Positions 24,340 through 34,445 of a stretch of 34,445 nt of DNA are shown here, in pieces. Each line of letters opens with the position of its first letter. Position 1 is the first letter of the stretch. The DNA is from Acidobacteriota bacterium. GTDB taxonomy: Bacteria > Acidobacteriota > Terriglobia > Bryobacterales > Bryobacteraceae. The stretch is taken from assembly GCA_016213725.1 (NCBI GenBank), contig JACQZS010000006.1, positions 1 to 34,445 of the forward strand, written 5' to 3'. The translations under genes were made by a program, and so were the position numbers. The notes under the pieces were generated by a model, which was not told where the DNA came from, did not search any database, and worked only from the letters and a program-made list of their open reading frames with translations.

Positions 24340-25677
24340 ATGGAACAGTTGACGTTTGGCGAGGAGCGGGCGGTGCATACGGTGACGAGCCTGACGGCGG
24401 CGATTCACCGGTTGATCTCGCTGAACTTTGAAGACGTGCGGGTGTCGGGAGAGATTTCGGGGTTCAAGGTTTGGTCTTCGGGGCACGCGTATTTCACGTT
24501 GAAAGACGCCGGGGCGCAGATCCGGTGCGTGATGTTCAAGAGCGCGCTGCGGTATTTGAAGTTTAAGCCGGGGGATGGGCTGGCGGTGACGGCGCGGGGA
24601 TCGGTGGAGGTGCGGCAGGAGCGGGGCGAGTATCAACTGCTGATCAGCTCGATGGAGCCGCAGGGGTTGGGCGCGCTGCAACTGGCGTTCGAACAGTTGA
24701 AGCGGAAGCTGGCGGAAGAGGGGCTGTTCGAGAACGAACGGAAGCGGGCGCTGCCTCCGTTCCCTAGGCGGATCGGGATTGTGACCTCGCCGAAGGGGGC
24801 GGTGATCCGGGACATGATTCATGTGCTGGGGCGGCGGTTTCCGGGGCTGCATATTCGGTTGTATCCGACGTTGGTGCAGGGTGAGGGGTCGGTGGAAGGG
24901 GTGTGCGAGGGGCTGCGGTATTTCAGCGAGTCGGGGTGGGCGGATGTGGTGATTGTGGGTCGGGGTGGGGGATCGCTCGAAGATTTGTGGACGTTCAACG
25001 AAGAGGCGGTGGCGCGGGCGATTGCGGAGTGCTCGGTGCCGGTGGTTTCGGCGGTTGGGCACGAGACCGATTTCACGATTGCGGATTTTGTGGCGGACTT
25101 GCGGGCGCCCACGCCTTCGGCGGCGGCGGAGGTGGTGGTGCCGAACCGGGCGGATTTGCTGGAGATGGTGCGGGTGGGGATGGTTCGTGTGGAGCGGGGG
25201 GCTCGGTATCATCTGGCGGCGGCGGGACGGCGGCTGCACGAGAAGGGGATCGACCGGGCGACGATGCTGGTGCGGCGGCAGGCGGGATTGGCCTGGCAGA
25301 AAGTGGATGAACTGGAGCAGAGATTGAGGCGGCTGGACCCGCGGGTGCGGTTGGCGGCGGCGCGGCAGAGGCTGGTGGAGGCGGAGCACGCGATGGGGCG
25401 GCTAGCGGGGGCCCGGGTGCGGGCTGCGGAGCTGAGGGTGGTTCAGTTGGGGGCGCGGAGTGAGAGTTTGGTGCGGGGGCGGGTTTCGGCTGTTGGTAGG
25501 AAGGTGGAGAGTTTGGCGGCGGGGTTGTCGGCTCTGAGTCCGGTGGCGGTTTTGGAGCGGGGGTATTCGGTTTTGAGTGTTGGGGAGAAAGTGGTGCGGG
25601 GGCCGGAGGATGCTCCGGTGGGGACGGAGGTGGAGGCGCGGTTGGCGAGGGGGAAGTTGCGCGCCAGGGTAATCTGA
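24340..25677 (+). CDS. xseA: Exodeoxyribonuclease VII large subunit
   Basis: 445 residues, the family's usual length. The N-terminal OB-fold (VRVSGEISGFKVWSSGHAYFTLKD) is followed by the catalytic core: RRIGIVTSPKGAVIRDMIHVL, VIVGRGGGSLEDLWTFNEE and AVGHETDFTIADFVADLRAPTPSAAAE. A long helical coiled-coil region and the C-terminal segment LERGYSVLSVGEKVV follow. The enzyme, with XseB, trims single-stranded DNA. xseB is not adjacent. The last ~143 codons are nearly duplicated 1,573 bp downstream. This copy ends ARVI-stop, whereas the downstream copy ends ARVTDVSG-stop, so the present C-terminus may have been supplied or altered by the duplication event. Confidence 0.95.
   Translation: MEQLTFGEERAVHTVTSLTAAIHRLISLNFEDVRVSGEISGFKVWSSGHAYFTLKDAGAQIRCVMFKSALRYLKFKPGDGLAVTARGSVEVRQERGEYQLLISSMEPQGLGALQLAFEQLKRKLAEEGLFENERKRALPPFPRRIGIVTSPKGAVIRDMIHVLGRRFPGLHIRLYPTLVQGEGSVEGVCEGLRYFSESGWADVVIVGRGGGSLEDLWTFNEEAVARAIAECSVPVVSAVGHETDFTIADFVADLRAPTPSAAAEVVVPNRADLLEMVRVGMVRVERGARYHLAAAGRRLHEKGIDRATMLVRRQAGLAWQKVDELEQRLRRLDPRVRLAAARQRLVEAEHAMGRLAGARVRAAELRVVQLGARSESLVRGRVSAVGRKVESLAAGLSALSPVAVLERGYSVLSVGEKVVRGPEDAPVGTEVEARLARGKLRARVI
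25241..25677 (+). repeat. xseA 3'-end direct repeat, copy 1 (in the intact gene)
   Basis: This stretch aligns without a gap to 26814-27250 at a constant offset of 1,573 bp, checked at both ends (25248/26821 and 25618/27191). The encoded segments differ at about 19 of 143 residues. Similarity stops abruptly just after the stop codon and fades upstream of about 25241. The two copies flank the lower-GC cargo region. Confidence 0.9.
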
Positions 25678-25987: not shown

Positions 25988-26686
25988 GTGATAAATAGAT
26001 GTTCGCGTGCGATGTTTTTCGCCGCGCTGGCAATGGCGACGTGTGGGACATTGTGTGGACAAGTAGCCGGCTCGCGGCCTGAGAAATCGGTAGAGGGATA
26101 TTCCGGCAAGATTGAGATCTCCAGGAATCGGCTGAATTCAGCATTCAGCGTATTGATCGAGCACAACACAGCGCAGACTGGCGTTCCAACGGCATTTGTA
26201 TTGCAATACATAGCATCGTCAAGAGCGAATGAAGTTATCGATTGGAAGGGAAGTGGCCGGCTTTTGGTCTCAAATGGTCTCGTGGCGGTGGTTGGAGATG
26301 ATGGGTATCGAGGTCTCTTCATGTTTGAAAGCCGAGAAGTGCCCGCGTCCTTGGGGGGATTTTTCAAGAGGGATCAGGCGGTAGAGATTTACGGCATAGC
26401 CACCTATGGCCAGGCCTCACCATTGAGCGCGGCCCAACTTGCGATGCTGAAGTCGAATGGGACGTGCACCCGAGCAGTTAAGAGTGCAGGCTTCAGTACG
26501 ACTGGGACGTCGCCAGAGGTGCTGTTGAATGCTCCGGCCTGCGCGGGTACCAATTGCACATCAGGCGGAGAGGGGGCCTCATCGTGCAGTTCCGGATACC
26601 CTCTGAATTGCAGCGTTAGTTGCTCACAACCGAAGTACTCGGCTTGCTGCAACAACACCGTTGGTTGTACCTGCTGCACGAATTGA
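25988..26686 (+). CDS. Secreted protein with cysteine-rich C-terminus, function unknown
   Basis: 232 residues from a GTG with an excellent Shine-Dalgarno (GAAAGGAG, 7 nt). The N-terminus MINRCSRAMFFAALAMATCGTLCGQ is a signal peptide. Residues ~35-150 look globular and non-repetitive. The last ~75 residues hold about 11 cysteines, ending CSVSCSQPKYSACCNNTVGCTCCTN, which suggests a disulfide-rich or metal-binding tail. No known family is recognised. GC content and codon use differ from neighbours (many A/T-ending codons), and the gene sits between duplicated xseA ends, so it was probably acquired by transfer. It could be a surface or secreted effector, or a precursor cleaved near the tail; both are guesses. 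Confidence 0.75.
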   Translation: MINRCSRAMFFAALAMATCGTLCGQVAGSRPEKSVEGYSGKIEISRNRLNSAFSVLIEHNTAQTGVPTAFVLQYIASSRANEVIDWKGSGRLLVSNGLVAVVGDDGYRGLFMFESREVPASLGGFFKRDQAVEIYGIATYGQASPLSAAQLAMLKSNGTCTRAVKSAGFSTTGTSPEVLLNAPACAGTNCTSGGEGASSCSSGYPLNCSVSCSQPKYSACCNNTVGCTCCTN

Positions 26687-26812: not shown

Positions 26813-27262
26813 GACAAGAGGATAGACCGGGCGGCGATGCTGGTGCGGCGGCAGGCGGGGTTGGCCTGGCAGAAGGTGGATGAGTTGGAGCAGAGGTTGA
26901 GGCGGATGGATCCTCGGGTGCGGCTGACTGCTGTGCGGGAGAGGCTGGTGGAGGCGGAGCACGCGATGGGGCGGCTGGCGGGGGCTCGGGTGCGGGTGAC
27001 GGAGCTGAGGGTGGTTCAGTTGGAGGCGCGGAGTGAGAGTTTGGTGCGGGGGCGGGTTTCGGCCGTGAGTATGAGGGTGGAGCGGCTGGCGGCGGGGTTG
27101 TCGGCTTTGAGTCCGGTGGCGGTGTTGGAGCGGGGGTATTCGGTGTTGAGCGTTGGGGAGAATGTGGTGCGGGGTGTGGAGGACGCTCCGGTGGCGACGG
27201 AGGTGGAGGCAAGGTTGGCGAAGGGGCGGCTGCGGGCGCGGGTGACGGACGTGAGCGGATAG
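26813..27262 (+). pseudogene. xseA: Duplicated 3' fragment of xseA (direct-repeat copy 2)
   Basis: Encodes IDRAAMLVRRQAGLAWQKV through LERGYSVLSVGENVV to ARVTDVSG, matching the last ~143 residues of XseA at roughly 87% identity with no gaps. It lacks the OB-fold and catalytic core, so it cannot make exonuclease VII. The frame has stayed open, which may reflect recent origin, or selection on a coiled-coil/C-terminal piece made from an internal start such as ATG 26837. Neutral strand and codon signals match the intact gene rather than the insert. It is followed after 54 bp by the haem-kinase operon, so this may be the original xseA end. Confidence 0.88.
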
Positions 27263-27264
27263 CA

Positions 27265-27293
27265 GGGACACGCGCGGCGCAAAACAATATAAT
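27265..27293 (+). promoter_or_regulatory. Sigma70-like promoter of the haem-kinase operon
   Basis: GGGACA (27265-27270, four of six) is separated by exactly 17 nt from a perfect TATAAT (27288-27293). It begins 3 nt after the xseA-fragment stop and would start transcription near 27300, about 17 nt before the kinase ATG. A consensus -10 box is conspicuous in this GC-rich genome. It makes the three-gene kinase operon independent of xseA. Confidence 0.6.
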
Positions 27294-27316
27294 CAGAGCG
27301 GAAAGTCCGGTTACAT

Positions 27317-28933
27317 ATGCAGCTGGTGACGAAGCTGATGTTGGCGCTGGTCGGCATTGTGGTGCTGATCGCGGTGGCGTCGGGGATCACGATCTACAAG
27401 TCGGAAGAGCGGCAATTGCTGAATGTGGTGATTCAGGGCGCGGACCAGCTGTCGGGATCGATCAGCAGCGCGACGTGGCATGCGATGCTGGCGGACCGGC
27501 GGAGCGACGCGTACCAGGTGATGGAGACGATTGCGTACAAGCAGGGGATCGACCGGCTGCGGATGTATAACCGGGAGGGGGAGATCACGTTTTCGACGCG
27601 GCGCGCGGACTTGGGGCAGCGGCAGGATCCGAACAGCGCGCAGTGCAGGGGATGTCACGCACAGGGGCGGAGGCTGGAGAAGCTGTCGTTGCAGGATCGG
27701 GTGCGAGTGGCGGAGATGACGGACGGGCAGCGGCGGTTGTCGGTGATCACGCCGATTGCGAACGAGCCGCAGTGCAGCACGGGGGAGTGCCACGCGCATC
27801 CGAAGGAGATGCGGGTGCTGGGATTGCTGGAAGTGAGCCTGAAGTTGGAAGAGGTGGACCGGGAACTGCGGGAAATGCAGGAGCGGATTGCGCTGAGGGC
27901 GCTGGCGGAGATTGCGCTGATCTGCCCGATTATCTACTTCTTTGCGCGGCGGATGATCCGGGACCCGATTGAGTCTTTGATTCAGAGCGCGGTTTCGATT
28001 TCGCGGATGGACCTGGAGCGGCCGGTGGAGGTGCCGGCTCATGCGGGCGAGGTGACGGAGCTGGCGAAGAGTTTCGATCTGATGCGCGTGCGATTGAGAG
28101 ACGCGATGGCGGAGATCAATCAATTCACGCAGCGGCTGGAGACGAAGGTGGCGGAGCGGACGCAGGAGTTGAAGGCGGCGCATCAGAAGCTGATGCAGAC
28201 GGACCGGCTGGCGTCGCTGGGGCAGCTTTCGGCGAGTGTGGCGCACGAGATCAACAACCCGGTGGCGGGTGTGTTGAACCTGGCGATGCTGATGCAGAGG
28301 GTGTTGAAGGACGACGGGATTCCGCCGGAGCGGGTGAAGGACTACCGGCGGTACCTGTCGCAGATCGTGCATGAGACATCGAGGGTGGGGCGGATAGTGA
28401 GCGATCTGCTGTCGTTTTCGCGGCGGCCGAGCCCGCACCGCTCCGAGGCGGATTTGAATTCCGTGATTGCGCACACCGTTTCGCTGACCACGCACAAGTT
28501 GAAGCTGGCGGGGCTCGAGACGGAGCTGGAGCTGCAGGAGGGGCTGCCGGCGATTCTGTGCGACAAGTCGCAGATCCAGCAGGTGGTGTTGAACCTGGTT
28601 TTGAACGCAGCGGAGGCGATGCAGGGCAAGCAAGGCGGAAAGGTGCGAGTGACGAGCGGGCGCGGGGACGGGACGCATGTGTGGTTTGCGGTGAGCGATG
28701 AAGGGGAGGGGATTGCGCCGGAGGTGCTGCCGAGGATCTTCGATCCGTTCTTCACGACGAAGCCGGAGGGGAAGGGCGTGGGGCTGGGGTTGGCGGTGAC
28801 GTATGGGATTGTGCAGGCGCATGGGGGGGAGATCGATGTGGAGAGTGCGCGGGGCAAGGGCGCGAAGTTCGTGGTGAGGCTGCCGCTGAAGCCGCCGGAG
28901 GAGCGGGTTGCGGGTCAGGAGAGCGCGGGGTGA
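27317..28933 (+). CDS. Membrane sensor histidine kinase with c-type haem-binding periplasmic domain
   Basis: 538 residues. One N-terminal helix (LMLALVGIVVLIAVASGITIY), a periplasmic domain (~30-190), a second helix (~193-211), HAMP (~212-265), coiled coil, HisKA with H310 (LSASVAHEINNPVAGVLNL) and HATPase (LVLNAAEAM, DEGEGIAPEV, GKGVGLGLAVTYG). The periplasmic part contains CRGCH (110-114), a classical c-haem site, and a second CSTGECH (153-159) that fits the rarer CX4CH form. Such domains sense redox state, O2 or NO. The gene overlaps the archaemetzincin gene by GTGA, and the NtrC-type regulator two genes on is its likely partner. The expected phosphorelay is inferred from order. Confidence 0.92.
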   Translation: MQLVTKLMLALVGIVVLIAVASGITIYKSEERQLLNVVIQGADQLSGSISSATWHAMLADRRSDAYQVMETIAYKQGIDRLRMYNREGEITFSTRRADLGQRQDPNSAQCRGCHAQGRRLEKLSLQDRVRVAEMTDGQRRLSVITPIANEPQCSTGECHAHPKEMRVLGLLEVSLKLEEVDRELREMQERIALRALAEIALICPIIYFFARRMIRDPIESLIQSAVSISRMDLERPVEVPAHAGEVTELAKSFDLMRVRLRDAMAEINQFTQRLETKVAERTQELKAAHQKLMQTDRLASLGQLSASVAHEINNPVAGVLNLAMLMQRVLKDDGIPPERVKDYRRYLSQIVHETSRVGRIVSDLLSFSRRPSPHRSEADLNSVIAHTVSLTTHKLKLAGLETELELQEGLPAILCDKSQIQQVVLNLVLNAAEAMQGKQGGKVRVTSGRGDGTHVWFAVSDEGEGIAPEVLPRIFDPFFTTKPEGKGVGLGLAVTYGIVQAHGGEIDVESARGKGAKFVVRLPLKPPEERVAGQESAG

Positions 28934-29478
28934 CTGAGATTGCGCTGGCGCGGCTGGCAGGCGGGATGGAGCCGCCGGCGGCAGGAGTGATGGAAGAGAT
29001 GAGGCAGGCGCTGGAAGACGTCTTCGCGGCCCGGGTGCGAGTGGCGGAGGTGCGGGTGCGCGTGCCGGAGGCGAGCCTGGACGGGGCGCGCGGGCAGTAC
29101 AGCGCTCCGCTGGTGCTGAAGGCGCTGCTGGAGGGGACGGCGGGGATGGGAGAGAAGGTGCTGGGGGTGACGTCGGAGGATCTGTTCATTCCGATGTTGA
29201 GCTTTGTGTACGGACAGGCGCAGTTGGGGGGGCGGGGCGGAGTGGTTTCGCTGGCGAGATTGAAGCAGGAGTATTACGGGCTGCCGGGCGATGGAGAGTT
29301 GCTGGCGGCGCGGGCGAGAAAAGAAGCGGTGCACGAGGCGGGCCACCTGTTTGGCCTGGTGCACTGCGAACAGCCGGAGTGCGCGATGCGGTTATCGACG
29401 AACATCCGGCAGTTGGATTTGAAGGGCGATGCGCTGTGTCTGGGTTGCGCGGCCCTGGCGATGGAGCATGGACGATGA
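28930..29478 (+). CDS. Archaemetzincin-family zinc metalloprotease (AmzA-like)
   Basis: 182 residues. HEAGHLFGLVHC (H135, E136, H139, H145, C146), then CAMRLS (C151, M153) and CLGC (C170, C173) reproduce the archaemetzincin signature HExxHxxGxxHC-x4-CxM...CxxC, including the Met-turn and the extra structural-zinc cysteines. No signal peptide, so it is probably cytoplasmic. It is encoded between a sensor kinase and its response regulator with GTGA and ATGA overlaps on both sides. A proteolytic step in the signalling pathway is possible, but no substrate is known for bacterial members. Confidence 0.92.
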   Translation: MTEIALARLAGGMEPPAAGVMEEMRQALEDVFAARVRVAEVRVRVPEASLDGARGQYSAPLVLKALLEGTAGMGEKVLGVTSEDLFIPMLSFVYGQAQLGGRGGVVSLARLKQEYYGLPGDGELLAARARKEAVHEAGHLFGLVHCEQPECAMRLSTNIRQLDLKGDALCLGCAALAMEHGR

Positions 29479-30830
29479 AGATGAACTGGCAGATTCTGGT
29501 GGTGGACGACGAAGAGATCATGTGCGAGTCGATGGCGGCGTGGCTGCGGGAAGACGGGTATGCGGTGGACACGGCGTCGTCGGGGCGGGAAGCGATCGAG
29601 ATGGCGCGGCGGCAGGACTATGCGATCTATTTTGTCGATCTGAAGATGCCGGGGGGGATCGACGGGATCGAGACGCTGATGGAGGTGCGGCGGATCCGGC
29701 CGGAGGCGGCGATCATTATCATCACGGCATATGCGACGGTGGACACGGCGATTTCGGCGATGAAGGAGGGGGCGCAGGAGTACATCGTCAAGCCGTGCAA
29801 TCCGGAAGAGATTTCGTTGCTGGTCAGCCGGATCATCAAGGTGAAGAACCTGCAGCGGGAGAACGCGATTCTGCGCAAGAAGCTGGCGAAGCAGTACCAG
29901 TTCCACGACATCATCAGCAAGAACGCGCGGATGCAGGAGATTCTGACGCTGTGCCAGGAGGTGGCGAGCCTGAGGAGCACGGTGATGATCCGCGGGGAGA
30001 GCGGGACTGGGAAAGAGCTGGTGGCGCGGGCGGTGCATTTTTCGGGCGACCGGGCGCAGAAGCCGTTCGTGGCGGTGTCGTGCGCGGCGCTGGCGGAGAC
30101 GCTGCTGGAGAGCGAGCTGTTCGGGTATGAGAAGGGCGCGTTTACGGGGGCGGCGGAGCGGAAGAAGGGCAAGTTCGAGCTGGCGGACGGGGGGACGATC
30201 TTCCTGGATGAGATCGGGGACATCTCGCCGAAGCTGCAGGCGGACCTGCTGCGCGTGCGGCATGAGAGGTCGTTCGACCGGCTGGGGGGATCTGAAGAGG
30301 TGAAGGTGGACGTGCGGGTGATTGCGGCGACGCACAAGGATTTGCGGGCGGCGGTGGAGGATGGACATTTCCGCGAGGATTTGTTTTACAGGCTGAACGT
30401 GATCGAAGTGCAGTTGCCGCCGCTGCGCGAGCGGCGGGAGGATATTCCGCTGCTGGCGGGACACTTCCTGGACCGGATTTCGCGCGAGGTGGGGAAAGAA
30501 GTGGCGGCGATCTCCGATGGGGCGATGCGGATTCTGCTGGACCACGACTGGCCGGGGAACGTGCGGGAGCTGGAGAACGCGATGGAGCGGGCGATTGTGG
30601 CTTCCAAGGAAGGCGTGCTGGGGGAGGAGGACTTCCGGTTCCTGCAAGGGAATGGGAGCGGGCGGCAGTTCCGGGCTCCGGCGGCGATGACGCTGGCGGA
30701 GATGGAGAAGCTGATGATCGAGGCGACGCTGAGAAGGACGGGGGGCAATATCAAAGAGGCGGCGGCGTCGCTGGGGATCGACCGGTCGACGCTGTACGAG
30801 AAGTTGAAGAAGTTCGGGATTGAGCGGTAA
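29475..30830 (+). CDS. NtrC-family sigma54-dependent response regulator
   Basis: 451 residues. Receiver domain with D11/D12, phosphoacceptor D55 (FVDLKMPG) and K106; AAA+ domain with Walker A GESGTGKE (174-181), the sigma54-contacting GAFTGA (221-226) and TIFLDEIGD (Walker B); C-terminal Fis-type HTH (GGNIKEAAASLGIDRSTLYEKLKKFGI). All hallmarks are intact, so it should activate sigma54 promoters. The start at 29475 overlaps the archaemetzincin stop (ATGA); ATG 29481 is an alternative. It ends stop-to-stop with the convergent redox operon. That operon is a plausible target, but its promoter lies outside the window. Confidence 0.95.
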   Translation: MKMNWQILVVDDEEIMCESMAAWLREDGYAVDTASSGREAIEMARRQDYAIYFVDLKMPGGIDGIETLMEVRRIRPEAAIIIITAYATVDTAISAMKEGAQEYIVKPCNPEEISLLVSRIIKVKNLQRENAILRKKLAKQYQFHDIISKNARMQEILTLCQEVASLRSTVMIRGESGTGKELVARAVHFSGDRAQKPFVAVSCAALAETLLESELFGYEKGAFTGAAERKKGKFELADGGTIFLDEIGDISPKLQADLLRVRHERSFDRLGGSEEVKVDVRVIAATHKDLRAAVEDGHFREDLFYRLNVIEVQLPPLRERREDIPLLAGHFLDRISREVGKEVAAISDGAMRILLDHDWPGNVRELENAMERAIVASKEGVLGEEDFRFLQGNGSGRQFRAPAAMTLAEMEKLMIEATLRRTGGNIKEAAASLGIDRSTLYEKLKKFGIER

Positions 30831-31655
30831 CTATTCGTCGAGGAAGATGGCGCCGCAGAGGGTGTCGAGCTGAGCGGGGGTGCAGCCGGCGGCGAGATCG
30901 TCGACGAGGACACCGCCGTCGGCGAGGGAGGGTGCTCCTTCGCCGGCGGAGAGGGCGAGCTGGAGGCGGTCGAGTTCGCGGGCGAACCAGGCGCGGAGTT
31001 CGGAGCCGGAGAGGAGATGGCGGGTGCTGAGGAAAGGGCTGGGCTTGAGGCGGAGGAGCCAGTTTGAGTTGGGGGGCGCGGTTTCGAGAACGATGCCGTC
31101 GATGGGGGCGAGGATGCGGGCTTCGGCGCCGGGGCGGTGGAGAGAGAGGGCGGGGCTATTGGCGATGATCGGGGTGCCGGGCGTGGGGAGGGTGAAGGTG
31201 GGGTTGGCGCCGGCGAGGCGGCGGCCGATCAAGTCGAGGCCGATGAGATAAGAGCCGTCGGGCTGGAGTTGGGCCCAGGTGTGGCCGCGGTGGTAGAGAC
31301 GGTCAGTGGGAATGGCGAGGCCGGAGACTTCGATGAGATCGGGGGCGGGTTCGGGGGGATGAACTTGTAGCAGCTTGGCGTGGGTGGCGCACTCGCGGCA
31401 GTCGAAGCCGCGTTCGCAGACACGGCCGGAGAGTTCGCCGGTGAAATCGTGGCGGCAGGCGCGCTCCTGGGGTGGGAGGTCATGGAAGGCGGAGTCCCAT
31501 TGGATGAGGGGGACACGGCCGCGGCGGAAAGCGGAGAAGCTGCGCCAGGCGGCGAGGATGAGGGTGGAGACGACGACGGCGGCGACGGCGAAGAAGATGC
31601 CGAGGAAGAGGACGTAGCCGAAGCTCCATTGGAAGCCGTAAACCCAGGGAAACAT
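30831..31655 (-). CDS. Membrane-anchored GcvH-like protein lacking the lipoyl lysine
   Basis: 274 residues with a GGAG ribosome site 6 nt before the ATG at 31655. One N-terminal helix (~12-37) is followed by a Cys-containing segment (C67, C80, C86, C89 in CRHDFTGELSGRVCERGFDCREC), then a region like glycine-cleavage H protein (LYHRGHTWAQLQPDGSYLIGLDLIGRRLAG ... ILAPIDGIVLE). No lysine occurs at ~160-200, so it cannot be lipoylated in the usual way. The C-terminal ~65 residues are unrelated to GcvH. It is the last gene of the redox operon, 2 bp after the NrfD-like gene. The cysteines may bind a metal or cluster. Role unknown. Confidence 0.72.
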   Translation of the reverse strand: MFPWVYGFQWSFGYVLFLGIFFAVAAVVVSTLILAAWRSFSAFRRGRVPLIQWDSAFHDLPPQERACRHDFTGELSGRVCERGFDCRECATHAKLLQVHPPEPAPDLIEVSGLAIPTDRLYHRGHTWAQLQPDGSYLIGLDLIGRRLAGANPTFTLPTPGTPIIANSPALSLHRPGAEARILAPIDGIVLETAPPNSNWLLRLKPSPFLSTRHLLSGSELRAWFARELDRLQLALSAGEGAPSLADGGVLVDDLAAGCTPAQLDTLCGAIFLDE

Positions 31656-31657
31656 AG

Positions 31658-32938
31658 TTAGCTCCTTTTGCTGGACAGGGCGAGTTCGCGCTCCTGCGGG
31701 AAGAGGGTGAGGTAGCGGTAAGAGAACGAGTAGACGAGGACGGCGTAGGCGATGATGGCGCCGAAGGCGGCGTATTCCTGCCAACTGGGCGAGTAGTAGA
31801 GGAAGCGGTCGAAGGGGAGAGTGGGGAGAGCCATGGTCTGGATGGTGAGGACGAAGCGGTTGAGAGTGACGCCGAGGCAGGCGAGGATGGCGCCGGTGAT
31901 GAGTGCTCCGCGGCGGGCGCGCCAGGAGGGGCGGATGAGAATGGCGGCGGGCAGCAGGCCGAAGAGGACGATTTCGGCGAAGAGCATCCAGGTGCCGAAG
32001 GCGGATTCGAGGTAGAAGCGATGGGCGGGGAAGCCGCGGCCGGGGGCGGTCTGGTTGATCCAGAGGAGGGTGTCGATGGTTTTGAGGAAGACGTAGGCGA
32101 GGAGGAGCTTGCCGGAGATGCGGCCGAGGGTGTCGTAGACAGCGGCTTGGATGAGGCGGCGGCGGGCGAGCTTCTCGACGAGCCAGGTGGTGAGGGCGAC
32201 GAAGGAGGGTCCGGCGGCCATGGCGGAGAGGATGAAGAGGAAGAAGGTGGAGGGCCAGATGGCGAAGCCTTCGCGGAAGACAAATGGGCGGCCACGGAGA
32301 ACTCCGAAGAGGCCGCCCAGAGAGCCCTGGTGAAAGAAGGAAAGCAAAGTACCAACCAGGGCAAAGACGACCATCAGCTTGTGCAGCTCCCACTCGAAGA
32401 CGAGGAACGAGGGGCGGAGCTTGAGCTGACGGTTTTTGAGAACCAGAGGGACGTACTCGATGGCGAGGACGGCGAGGTAGCAGGTGATGCAGAAGGTGAC
32501 CTCAGTGAGCATCGAGTGGACATTGGGGTGGTAGTAAGTGAACCAGGCGCGGAGGGGCTGGCCGACGTCGACGGCGAGGACGACCATGGCGCCGGAGTAG
32601 CAGGTGAGGCCGATGACGACGGCGGAGTTGATGACGGCCTTGAGTTCCTTGTTGCGGAGGACGTAGAGGAGGAAGCCGGTGAAGAAGGCGCCGGCGCCGA
32701 GGGCGATGATGGTGAGGTCGAGGAAGATCCAGAGGCCGAAGGCGTAGCGATTGTCCATGTTGGTATGGAAGAGGCCCTGGCTGAGGCAGAGGTACATGGC
32801 GTAAGCGCCGAGGGCGAGGAGGCCGAACCAGGGGAGGAGCCAGAGAGAGAAGCGCGCGAGGGTGGAGCGGGAGGCGCCGCGATTGATGAAGCGGCGGTCA
32901 ATGGATGCGGCTGGGGCGGAGGCGAGAGCGCTAGGCAT
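31658..32938 (-). CDS. NrfD/PsrC-family integral membrane subunit (quinone-interacting)
   Basis: 426 residues with about ten hydrophobic helices. The start at 32938 (MPSALASAPAASIDRRF) is chosen because the ribosome-proximal region overlaps the Fe-S gene by 8 bp; the longer frame is Pro/Ser-rich shadow translation. Typical features are NMDNRYAFGLWIFLDLTIIALGAGAFFTGFLLYVL, WELHKLMVVFALVGTLLSFFHQGSLGGLFGVL and NRFVLTIQTM, close to HybB/DsrP-like members of the family. These subunits exchange electrons with quinones through a Fe-S partner. Here the partner is the four-cluster protein encoded upstream. Confidence 0.9.
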   Translation of the reverse strand: MPSALASAPAASIDRRFINRGASRSTLARFSLWLLPWFGLLALGAYAMYLCLSQGLFHTNMDNRYAFGLWIFLDLTIIALGAGAFFTGFLLYVLRNKELKAVINSAVVIGLTCYSGAMVVLAVDVGQPLRAWFTYYHPNVHSMLTEVTFCITCYLAVLAIEYVPLVLKNRQLKLRPSFLVFEWELHKLMVVFALVGTLLSFFHQGSLGGLFGVLRGRPFVFREGFAIWPSTFFLFILSAMAAGPSFVALTTWLVEKLARRRLIQAAVYDTLGRISGKLLLAYVFLKTIDTLLWINQTAPGRGFPAHRFYLESAFGTWMLFAEIVLFGLLPAAILIRPSWRARRGALITGAILACLGVTLNRFVLTIQTMALPTLPFDRFLYYSPSWQEYAAFGAIIAYAVLVYSFSYRYLTLFPQERELALSSKRS

Positions 32939-33659
32939 GGCGGGACTCCTGGAGGGCGTTGCGGAGGGAGGCGCTGGAGGTTTTGTAGACGATCTTGGGG
33001 CCGGTGCGGAGGGAGTCGAGCAGGCGGAAGCAGGCGTGTCCGGCGGCTTTGGCGGCGAACTCGGATTGGTTGAGATCGCCGAAGGCGATGGCCTGGGCGG
33101 GGCAGGCCTCGGCGCAGGCGGGCTGGTAGGAGACGGGGCCATTTTCGCCATTGGCGGCGGCCTGCTGGCGGGCGGCGTGCCAGCGGCCGTGGCAGAAGTT
33201 GCACTTTTCGACGGTGCCGCGCTGGCGGACGCCGACTTCGGGGTTGAGGGTGAGTTCGAAGCCGGCGGGCCACTGGGGATCCCACCAGTTGAAGGCGCGG
33301 GCCTGGTAGGGGCAGGCGGCCATGCAGTAACGGCAGCCCAGGCAGCGTTCGGGGATCTGGCCGACGATGCCGGTGGCCGGATCGATGGCGACGGCGTTCT
33401 GGGGGCAGACGCTCTGGCAGGGGGTTTCCTCGCCGCACTGCATACAGGAGATGGGGATGAAGGCGTCGCGGCCTTCGTGCTCGACGCGGAATACGCGGAG
33501 CCAGTTGAGGCCGGTGCGCGTGGTGGCCTTGGGGTGAGGCGGGGGGACGTTGTTTTCGACGGCGCAGGCGACGGAGCAGCTGCCGCAGCCGTTGCAGCGG
33601 TCGAGGTCGATGATCATGCCGTAGCGGGCGGCGGGAGCGGGTTTGCGGGTGTCGATCAT
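32931..33659 (-). CDS. Four-[4Fe-4S] ferredoxin-like electron-transfer subunit (NrfC/HybA/PsrB type)
   Basis: 242 residues. Four cluster motifs are visible: CNGCGSCSVAC, CMQCGEETPCQSVCP, CLGCRYCMAACPYQ, and the split set CNFCHGRW with CAEACPAQA. No Tat signal is seen; MIDTRKPAPAARYGM precedes the first cluster, so export may depend on the large subunit. It carries electrons between the molybdopterin-type subunit and the NrfD-like membrane protein. The start overlaps the upstream stop (ATGA, 33656-33659). Confidence 0.93.
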   Translation of the reverse strand: MIDTRKPAPAARYGMIIDLDRCNGCGSCSVACAVENNVPPPHPKATTRTGLNWLRVFRVEHEGRDAFIPISCMQCGEETPCQSVCPQNAVAIDPATGIVGQIPERCLGCRYCMAACPYQARAFNWWDPQWPAGFELTLNPEVGVRQRGTVEKCNFCHGRWHAARQQAAANGENGPVSYQPACAEACPAQAIAFGDLNQSEFAAKAAGHACFRLLDSLRTGPKIVYKTSSASLRNALQESRHA

Positions 33660-34445
33660 GCGGGGACCACCTTTGAGCCGGGGACGATCCAGGAACCGCT
33701 GGCGTTGACGCGGCAGAGCTGAGAGAAAGAGGGGCCGGTGGAGAGAGAGACGAGGCCGGGAGGGAGATTGGGGTCAGAAGCGACCTTGATGGGGAGGCGG
33801 CCTTGGGGGGATTCGAGGAGAGCGGAGCGGCCTTCGGCGAGGTTGAGGCTGCGGAGGGTTTCGGGGTGGAGGGCGGCGCTGCGGGGCGCGGGGCGGAGGT
33901 CGGACTCCTGCCAGAGCTTGCCGAGCATGGGGGAGACGGAGGCGGCGCGCCAGCCGTAGGCGGCGAGTTGGAGGGGCTCGGCGGGTCGGTTGGCGGCGGC
34001 GATGAGTTGCTCTGGGGTGAGATTGGCAGGCAGGAAGCGGGCGGGTGGACCGGCGGCGGGGGGCGCGGCGGAGGCGGACCAGGAACCGCCGCTTTCGAGG
34101 AGCTCTTTTTCGCCGGCGTTGAGGGCTTTGATGCGTTCCTTGATGCGATCCGCAAAGGGGGTTTCGTCGCCGGCGAGTTGAGCGATGAAGTCCGCGGCGT
34201 GGATGGCGTCTTTGGGGGGAGCGAGGAGGGCGGGGGAGAGGGCGAAGCGGGGGGTGGGATCGTCGTAGGCCGGAGGAGCGTCGGCGAGGGTTTCGAGGAA
34301 AACGGGGATGGGGAGGATCCACTGGGCGTACTGGGTCCAGGGGCTCTGGCTCCAGGCGAGGGCGATGATGGCGGCGCGGGGGGTGAGCTTGGGTTCGATG
34401 AGGGACCAGGGGATGGAGCAGCCGGGCTGGGGATCGTCGATGACG
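33656..34445 (-). CDS. Molybdopterin oxidoreductase-like large subunit (C-terminal part; 5' end beyond window)
   Basis: The frame is open from the right window edge to the stop at 33656, giving about 262 residues of C-terminus. No initiation codon is needed inside the window; the internal ATG at 33928 is not the start. The sequence has TPRAAIIALAWSQSPWTQYAQWILPIPVFLETLAD, then GWRAASVSPMLGKLWQ and a terminal domain SAALHPETLRSLNLAEGRSALLESPQGRLPIKVASDPNLPPGLVSLSTGP, typical of the molybdopterin dinucleotide-binding C-domain of DMSO-reductase-family or related ACIII subunits. Whether it binds molybdenum cannot be judged without the N-terminal part. It is the first visible gene of the redox operon. 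Confidence 0.8.
   Translation of the reverse strand, partial: VIDDPQPGCSIPWSLIEPKLTPRAAIIALAWSQSPWTQYAQWILPIPVFLETLADAPPAYDDPTPRFALSPALLAPPKDAIHAADFIAQLAGDETPFADRIKERIKALNAGEKELLESGGSWSASAAPPAAGPPARFLPANLTPEQLIAAANRPAEPLQLAAYGWRAASVSPMLGKLWQESDLRPAPRSAALHPETLRSLNLAEGRSALLESPQGRLPIKVASDPNLPPGLVSLSTGPSFSQLCRVNASGSWIVPGSKVVPA

Follow-up and report, generated by a model that had tools for sequence, protein, structure and literature searches.

Why should a gene for a zinc protease of the archaemetzincin family lie between a haem-type sensor kinase and an NtrC-type response regulator? The question is raised by three adjoining genes in the window, which is the whole stretch of 34,445 nucleotides analysed here and also a whole contig (JACQZS010000006.1, C47) of the 6.05 Mb draft genome of an Acidobacteriota bacterium of the Bryobacteraceae. 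The answer proposed is that a haem sensor acts through a sigma54-dependent regulator on a respiratory operon, and that the archaemetzincin is a proteolytic modulator of this circuit. The circuit of sensor, sigma54 and respiratory operon is well supported, while the explanation as a whole, protease included, is given a slight lean in its favour. The features on which the argument rests are listed below.

27317..28933, + strand: sensor histidine kinase, membrane protein of 538 aa, read as transmembrane segment, periplasmic Cache-like domain with two c-haem-type motifs, transmembrane segment, HAMP, HisKA and HATPase_c.
27644..27658, + strand: first haem-type motif CxxCH (CRGCH) of the kinase, residues 110-114, with a conservation of 90% or more among the 61 kinases that make up alignment A3.
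27773..27793, + strand: second haem-type motif C-x4-CH (CSTGECH), residues 153-159, aligned with the haem motif of 3b42.
28930..29478, + strand: archaemetzincin (M54), 182 aa, GTG start, zinc and catalytic residues all present.
29332..29367, + strand: catalytic motif HEAGHLFGLVHC of the archaemetzincin, residues 135-146, read from the sequence and the alignments.
29475..30830, + strand: NtrC-type sigma54-dependent response regulator, 451 aa, with receiver, AAA+ domain with GAFTGA, and Fis-type helix-turn-helix.

First of all, the cassette itself is sound. Its genes run head to tail on the + strand and both junctions are 4-nt overlaps (GTGA, then ATGA); all frames are open and Pfam agrees (HAMP, HisKA and HATPase_c in the kinase; Response_reg, Sigma54_activat and HTH_8 in the regulator), so the set of kinase, zinc protease and sigma54 activator described in the first-pass annotation is confirmed. 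By Pfam and by sequence reading, kinase and regulator have the domains of an NtrC-type two-component pair. Their domain order is that of NtrC-family systems of the AtoSC and ZraSR type, from which the cassette differs in that a metalloprotease gene is its conserved third member and its sensor is of c-haem type.

Whether the protease belongs to this pair was judged by how widely the arrangement recurs. In a named-genome set made up of the best 80 of 569 archaemetzincin loci, ranked by similarity to alignment A1, an NtrC-type gene adjoins the archaemetzincin in 78 loci, and in the remaining two (L092, L100) the kinase and the regulator sit at the opposite end of the same gene cluster. These 80 loci span 14 NCBI phyla, with a few records unassigned; the phylum labels come from record titles, that of Myxococcota rests on titles saying Deltaproteobacteria, and single metagenome-assembled genomes labelled Actinomycetota or Bacillota could be misbinned. 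That the genes became neighbours by chance is favoured only by the frequency of NtrC-type genes. A sigma54-activator match lies within 1 kb of the protease gene in 78 of the 80 loci, against 8 matches in 635 kb of distant flank, and two arrangements occur within the same genome; with 14 phyla involved, chance adjacency was rejected and its probability is regarded as negligible. The concern that the protease might sit beside these genes in one strain only was thereby answered, and its place in a two-component operon stands.

Within the same family, Peptidase_M54 was found in 76 of 150 genomes by profile search, and all 51 distinct loci examined adjoin an NtrC-type gene; this set holds 2 loci of the own genome, the 30 returned and 19 picked, with the weakest matches omitted (52 records, L001 and L203 being the same place). 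In the survey of the phylum, an M54 match was present in 102 of 396 genomes (122 rows, 2 of them from the own genome), and 90 of the 120 other rows were sampled, the 30 weakest being omitted. Among these 90 Acidobacteriota-wide loci 61 are linked: 59 are of the two arrangements described below as type A or B, and 2 have a further kinase-like match in between (L148 and L152, with kinase, regulator, second kinase-like match and then archaemetzincin). On the Bacteroidota side, M54 was found in 24 of 198 genomes, and 16 of 30 loci (L242 included) are linked, these being the 16 best-scoring, while the 14 weaker matches are unlinked or unconfirmed. For Desulfobacterota, M54 is present in 76 of 198 genomes, and 7 of the 30 loci returned are linked. 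Since many archaemetzincins are unlinked and have no common neighbour (69 unlinked loci clustered, many viewed only within 1.5 kb on either side; largest shared group 4 loci), linkage to signalling genes marks a large archaemetzincin group, not the entire family. A divergent M54 group (L279-L285, L192, L193, L199, L201) consists mostly of open frames of about 300 aa and has no signalling genes linked.

The linked loci fall into two arrangements: kinase-protease-regulator, as in the window (type A), and kinase-regulator-protease (type B). The own genome holds one cassette of each, its second archaemetzincin (contig C199) being of type B. In type A, 28 of the 40 junctions between kinase and protease are 4-nt overlaps, as are 25 of the 44 between protease and regulator, and in type B the regulator and the protease are at most 40 nt apart at 83 of 85 junctions; for these counts start codons were chosen by script and loci with unresolved genes excluded. 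A tree of 248 proteases accounts for the labels A, B and none with 14 changes, where shuffled labels take 111. For 132 cassettes, a single split separates A from B in the regulator tree (support 68) and in the kinase tree (support 92), and the protease tree shows three such splits, with a single one still compatible. The path-distance correlation within type A is 0.81 (rho) for protease and regulator and 0.84 for protease and kinase, and within type B 0.63 and 0.64, values that include a contribution from shared species history. No protease fused to a regulator or kinase was seen among 316 archaemetzincin frames (contigs fetched twice retained). One Bacteroidetes contig (L078) carries two cassettes in tandem, one of type B and one of type A.

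What kind of protein, then, is the third member? To judge from its residues, it is a catalytically complete metalloprotease. The archaemetzincin consensus is HExxHxxGxxHC-x4-CxM-x17-CxxC (excerpts of PMC8156234), and the window protein reads HEAGHLFGLVHC-EQPE-CAM-16 residues-CLGC, with the last spacer one residue short; the three protease motifs were thus read directly, as had been claimed, and alignments A1 and A2 agree. Peptidase_M54 (PF07998) scores 72.3 bits (cut-off 24.4), and the NCBIfam archaemetzincin model NF033823 142.7 bits against a cut-off of 145. A profile search of the PDB returned four distinct archaemetzincin sequences (2x7m, 4axq, 3zvs, 3lmc) at E 1.9e-36 or better, followed by two weak metalloproteinase matches, 1kug and 1kuf (E 0.004-0.005). 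The structure model (predicted local distance difference test, pLDDT, 95.8) has archaemetzincin 2x7m as its best match (Foldseek E 1.3e-19, template modelling score 0.82), so that the predicted fold is that of AmzA. Zinc ligands and catalytic Glu are retained in all 189 linked locus records (drawn from L001-L222, with duplicate-fetched contigs retained); 172 have the full motif, the other 17 are altered, mostly in the glycine after the second histidine, and the pattern HExxH-x5-HC-x4-C is common to all 189. The best 19-residue hydropathy of the window protein is 1.21, and it is probably cytoplasmic because it has no strongly hydrophobic stretch; 72 of 132 relatives exceed 1.6 somewhere, so hydropathy alone does not decide for the group. 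It shares fold and motif with the AmzA archaemetzincins of archaea (2x7m, 3zvs, 4axq, 3lmc), from which it differs in being encoded in a signalling operon and in having a short YGLP-containing stretch before the active-site helix; 2x7m and 4axq lack this stretch, and it is also present in the unlinked L034.

Archaemetzincins span archaea to humans and, according to excerpts of PMC8156234, their biological importance is hardly known. The first-pass annotation held that those of bacteria have no known role, which overlooks CarG of Myxococcus xanthus, the archaemetzincin-like, inactive partner of the transcription factor CarD (PMC8156234, PMC3427221, in the portions available). CarG is the closest precedent and the sole archaemetzincin-type protein with a known bacterial role met in this analysis. 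It has the archaemetzincin-type His/Cys motif, binding two zinc atoms, and its gene is translationally coupled to that of the transcription factor, much as the genes overlap here (PMC8156234, PMC3427221). It could therefore be supposed that the window protein, too, holds zinc without cleaving proteins and acts as a co-regulator by binding the regulator, in the manner of CarG with CarD. The similar motif type, the coupled gene pair and the fact that CarG is a transcription factor without DNA binding speak for this (PMC8156234, PMC3427221, PMC4374960, as far as excerpts go), as does the inactivity of archaeal relatives in tests (PMC8156234). However, CarG lacks the catalytic Glu (HQ instead of HE) and is inactive, while the window protein has HE and HExxH is kept in all 189 linked records; the CarG model NF033824, whose cut-off is 250 bits, gives 92.4, and in place of CarD a kinase/NtrC pair is encoded next door. 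Such a co-regulator role is thus considered unlikely. Because the catalytic Glu is kept in all linked records checked and lost in CarG, action by proteolysis would be favoured over a scaffold role, at about even confidence.

As for the signal, the kinase is predicted to carry c-type haem. Many kinases of both types have CxxCH and then C-x4-CH about 43 residues later. Of 68 type A kinases, 42 have two haem-type motifs, 23 have one and 3 have none; of 40 type B kinases, 35 have two and 5 have one. These kinases were extracted by script, and some are truncated by locus ends. Alignment A3 consists of the window kinase and 60 relatives chosen for C-x4-CH, so that this motif is bound to be invariant there; M57 is likewise invariant, although it played no part in the choice. 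The kinase profile matches the Geobacter c-haem sensor GSU0935 (3b42) at E 1.6e-5 over the whole sequence, with the 3b42 haem motif aligned to C153-H159, and the structure model is similar to WalK and 3b42. The Pfam model Mcp40H-20_sensor scores below its cut-off. With sensors of the sCache_heme/DUF3365 type (GSU0935, GSU0582) the kinase has in common a Cache-like fold and a haem-type motif before the last strand, but at that place C-x4-CH stands where those sensors have CxxCH, and the kinase has a further CxxCH upstream of it. Five kinases (L075, L076, L085, L099, L102), from records titled Acidobacteria, Acidobacteriia or Bryobacterales, are without the first CxxCH and keep C-x4-CH. Because c-haem Cache domains fused to signalling modules show properties like those of nitric oxide (NO) sensors (2026 preprint, PMC12889525, in the portion seen), the signal may be NO instead of redox. 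The earlier proposal of a haem-sensed redox response is supported in its haem and respiratory part by the c-haem-type motifs, the Geobacter homology and the co-inheritance given below; the signal may be either redox or NO.

The respiratory side of the circuit begins directly behind the regulator, on the opposite strand:

30831..31655, - strand: GcvH-like protein with N-terminal hydrophobic stretch, last gene of a convergent Qrc-like operon; GcvH scores weak, below cut-off.
31658..32938, - strand: quinone-reactive membrane subunit of QrcD/NrfD type (NF041784, 566.5 bits, cut-off 570), its start taken from the open frame.
32931..33659, - strand: QrcC-like 4Fe-4S subunit (NF041782, 274 bits, cut-off 400).
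33656..34445, - strand: QrcB-like subunit of molybdopterin-oxidoreductase type, C-terminal part, the gene being cut by the contig end.

The stop of the GcvH-like gene (30831) abuts that of the regulator. The curated Qrc cut-offs are missed in the window, for QrcD by 3.5 bits and for QrcC by more; in the relative L063, QrcD (570.3, cut-off 570) and QrcA (199, cut-off 180) pass and QrcB (169, cut-off 440) fails. Compared with QrcABCD, the menaquinone reductase of sulfate reducers, relatives hold homologues of QrcD, QrcC, QrcB and QrcA in order and the window holds D, C and part of B; the difference lies in extra GcvH-like proteins and a small membrane protein, and in several subunits scoring under the curated cut-offs. 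A 2021 review (PMC8076601, excerpt) describes QrcD as confined to Deltaproteobacteria. A term search in the available text of PMC8076601 and PMC6303296 found neither GcvH nor histidine kinase, and no paper naming GcvH was found in the literature on GcvH with NrfD and regulators. The window GcvH-like protein (30831-31655) seems to be without the lipoyl lysine, the motif having been read by eye, and some of the GcvH-like proteins beside NrfD complexes have Cys-rich N-terminal parts.

Among the 80 loci and the window, clustered by neighbours up to 10 kb with some hidden by contig ends, GcvH-like proteins occur in 48 loci, NrfD-like in 39 (the window included) and iron-sulfur (FeS) proteins in 32. 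The partner of type A is the Qrc-like quinone reductase with GcvH-like proteins, that of type B an FeS-NrfD-GcvH module. QrcD was found in 46 of the 150 family genomes (E 1e-60) and the type A regulator in 47 (E 1e-150), with 45 in common, including cases in which the two are on separate contigs; the two lists were matched by hand (Fisher 1e-34, uncorrected for kinship). Such closeness would also be expected if the archaemetzincin were a processing or quality-control peptidase of the Qrc-like/NrfD complex or of the GcvH-like proteins, merely co-regulated with them: QrcD is in 45 of 47 type A regulator genomes, it is missing from two of the four in which the type A locus has no protease, and in L092 and L100 the protease gene heads a GcvH-FeS-NrfD cluster, away from kinase and regulator. 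Nevertheless, the protease tracks the signalling genes (78 of 80) more closely than the GcvH-like (48) or NrfD-like (39) ones, and two genomes (G076, G063) keep Qrc without the A-locus protease, though another M54 copy could substitute. This processing role is accordingly judged improbable, and modulation of the circuit by the protease is kept as the preferred reading.

The step from regulator to operon was then followed through sigma54-type sites, with -24/-12 weights and consensus set by hand. Before the small membrane-protein gene that heads the qrc operon, a site was found in 11 of 13 loci at a score reached by at most 2 of 50 shuffles, and 8 of the 11 sites lie 54-85 nt before the start. 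The first scan was weaker elsewhere (GcvHb 20 of 42 places, B-type GcvH 18 of 68) because many GcvH genes are internal to operons. In the second scan (200 nt, score at least 13, a threshold set after the first scan), a site was present ahead of 11 of 48 partner operons and of 8 of 63 cassette-only runs, and, among other genes taken as control, ahead of 2 of 438; in both scans one contig is counted twice (L063 and L259), and misplaced first genes may lower the count. The regulator-to-operon step is thus supported by co-inheritance for type A and, for both types, by the promoter-type sites that some of the operons have. Because a sigma54-type site stands ahead of the cassette itself in several operons of type B and at some loci of type A, autoregulation is suggested.

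On this basis, the c-type haem on the periplasmic Cache-like domain would read the periplasmic redox state or NO, the kinase would phosphorylate the NtrC-type regulator, as its domains imply, and the regulator would open the sigma54 promoters of the partner respiratory operon. The archaemetzincin, made together with the pair, may cut one component of the circuit as feedback, whether the regulator, the cytoplasmic part of the kinase or the GcvH-like protein.

How far the pair depends on the protease can be seen where it is missing. The protease gene adjoins the type A regulator in 41 of 47 loci (coordinates compared by hand) and two others are at contig ends. In the remaining four (G076, G037, G063, G027) no archaemetzincin was found; there the end of the kinase frame falls between 35 nt within the regulator gene and 111 nt ahead of it. 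Two of the four (G037, G027) are also without a QrcD match, and in the G037 regulator (L252) GSSTGA replaces GAFTGA; for this reason half of the losses may accompany decay of the circuit. No well-conserved regulator or kinase column differs in two or more of the four sequences, compared with 47 regulators and 44 kinases with protease. The idea that the A copy is lost only where another copy exists was dropped as uninformative, all four keeping another M54, as do nearly all type A genomes. The archaemetzincin would be a modulator, as a few lineages retain kinase and regulator in its absence.

Several observations weigh against the proposed explanation. Four of 47 regulator loci do without the protease, and two of these genomes (G076, G063) still have QrcD. 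Archaemetzincins are unlinked in 29 of the 90 phylum loci, 14 of which were viewed no further than 1.5 kb out and some at the ends of contigs (L053), and among the 30 Desulfobacterota loci returned 23 are unlinked. Thirty-seven of 48 partner operons show no site at the threshold, and the window has no sigma54 site of 10/11 or better, the contig ending before the upstream end of its Qrc-like operon. Archaeal archaemetzincins showed no activity on the substrates tried (PMC8156234, excerpt), although a divergent one did degrade casein (PMC4681839, excerpt), and no substrate or cleavage site was found for the window protein. In addition, all signalling motifs had been called intact, which is right for every motif named, but the window regulator reads LRVRHERSFDR at 30249-30281 (residues about 259-269), where 11 relatives compared read LRVL(Q/E)(E/D)...; this may be an unusual change in a conserved AAA+ stretch or an assembly error. 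The suggestion of proteolytic control therefore agrees with the conserved active site and is weakened by the protease-less loci and the lack of a substrate.

Upstream of the kinase gene, a further claim did not survive:

27265..27293, + strand: sigma70-like promoter candidate GGGACA-17-TATAAT, not above chance.

The string, which had been taken for a consensus promoter, exists and scores 10/12, but there are 2 such sites in 5.9 kb against 1.0 +/- 1.1 in shuffles. In the same region, the 3' part of the gene for the exonuclease VII large subunit (xseA) is duplicated (25240-25539 and 26813-27112, 89% over 300 nt), and the second copy is a 157-aa fragment frame directly before the kinase gene. An orphan 232-aa frame (25988-26686), cysteine-rich at its C-terminus and without a Pfam match, lies between the copies.

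No published report pairing an archaemetzincin with two-component systems was found; most subscription papers lie outside the search, so novelty is unproven. In a wider sense, it is an evenly balanced proposition that in this clade the archaemetzincin is a third component dedicated to a haem-sensing NtrC system and would cut a component of its own circuit, in a dozen or more phyla and twice as paralogues, each copy serving its own NrfD/GcvH complex. If true, this would, as far as the literature search shows, be the first time that a bacterial archaemetzincin with an intact catalytic site is placed in a physiological pathway. The operon partner, the predicted regulon and the candidate substrates make the role of the archaemetzincin testable at the bench, and what would emerge is a two-component design with a recurrent metalloprotease member, tied to quinone-reactive respiratory complexes in Acidobacteriota and other phyla.

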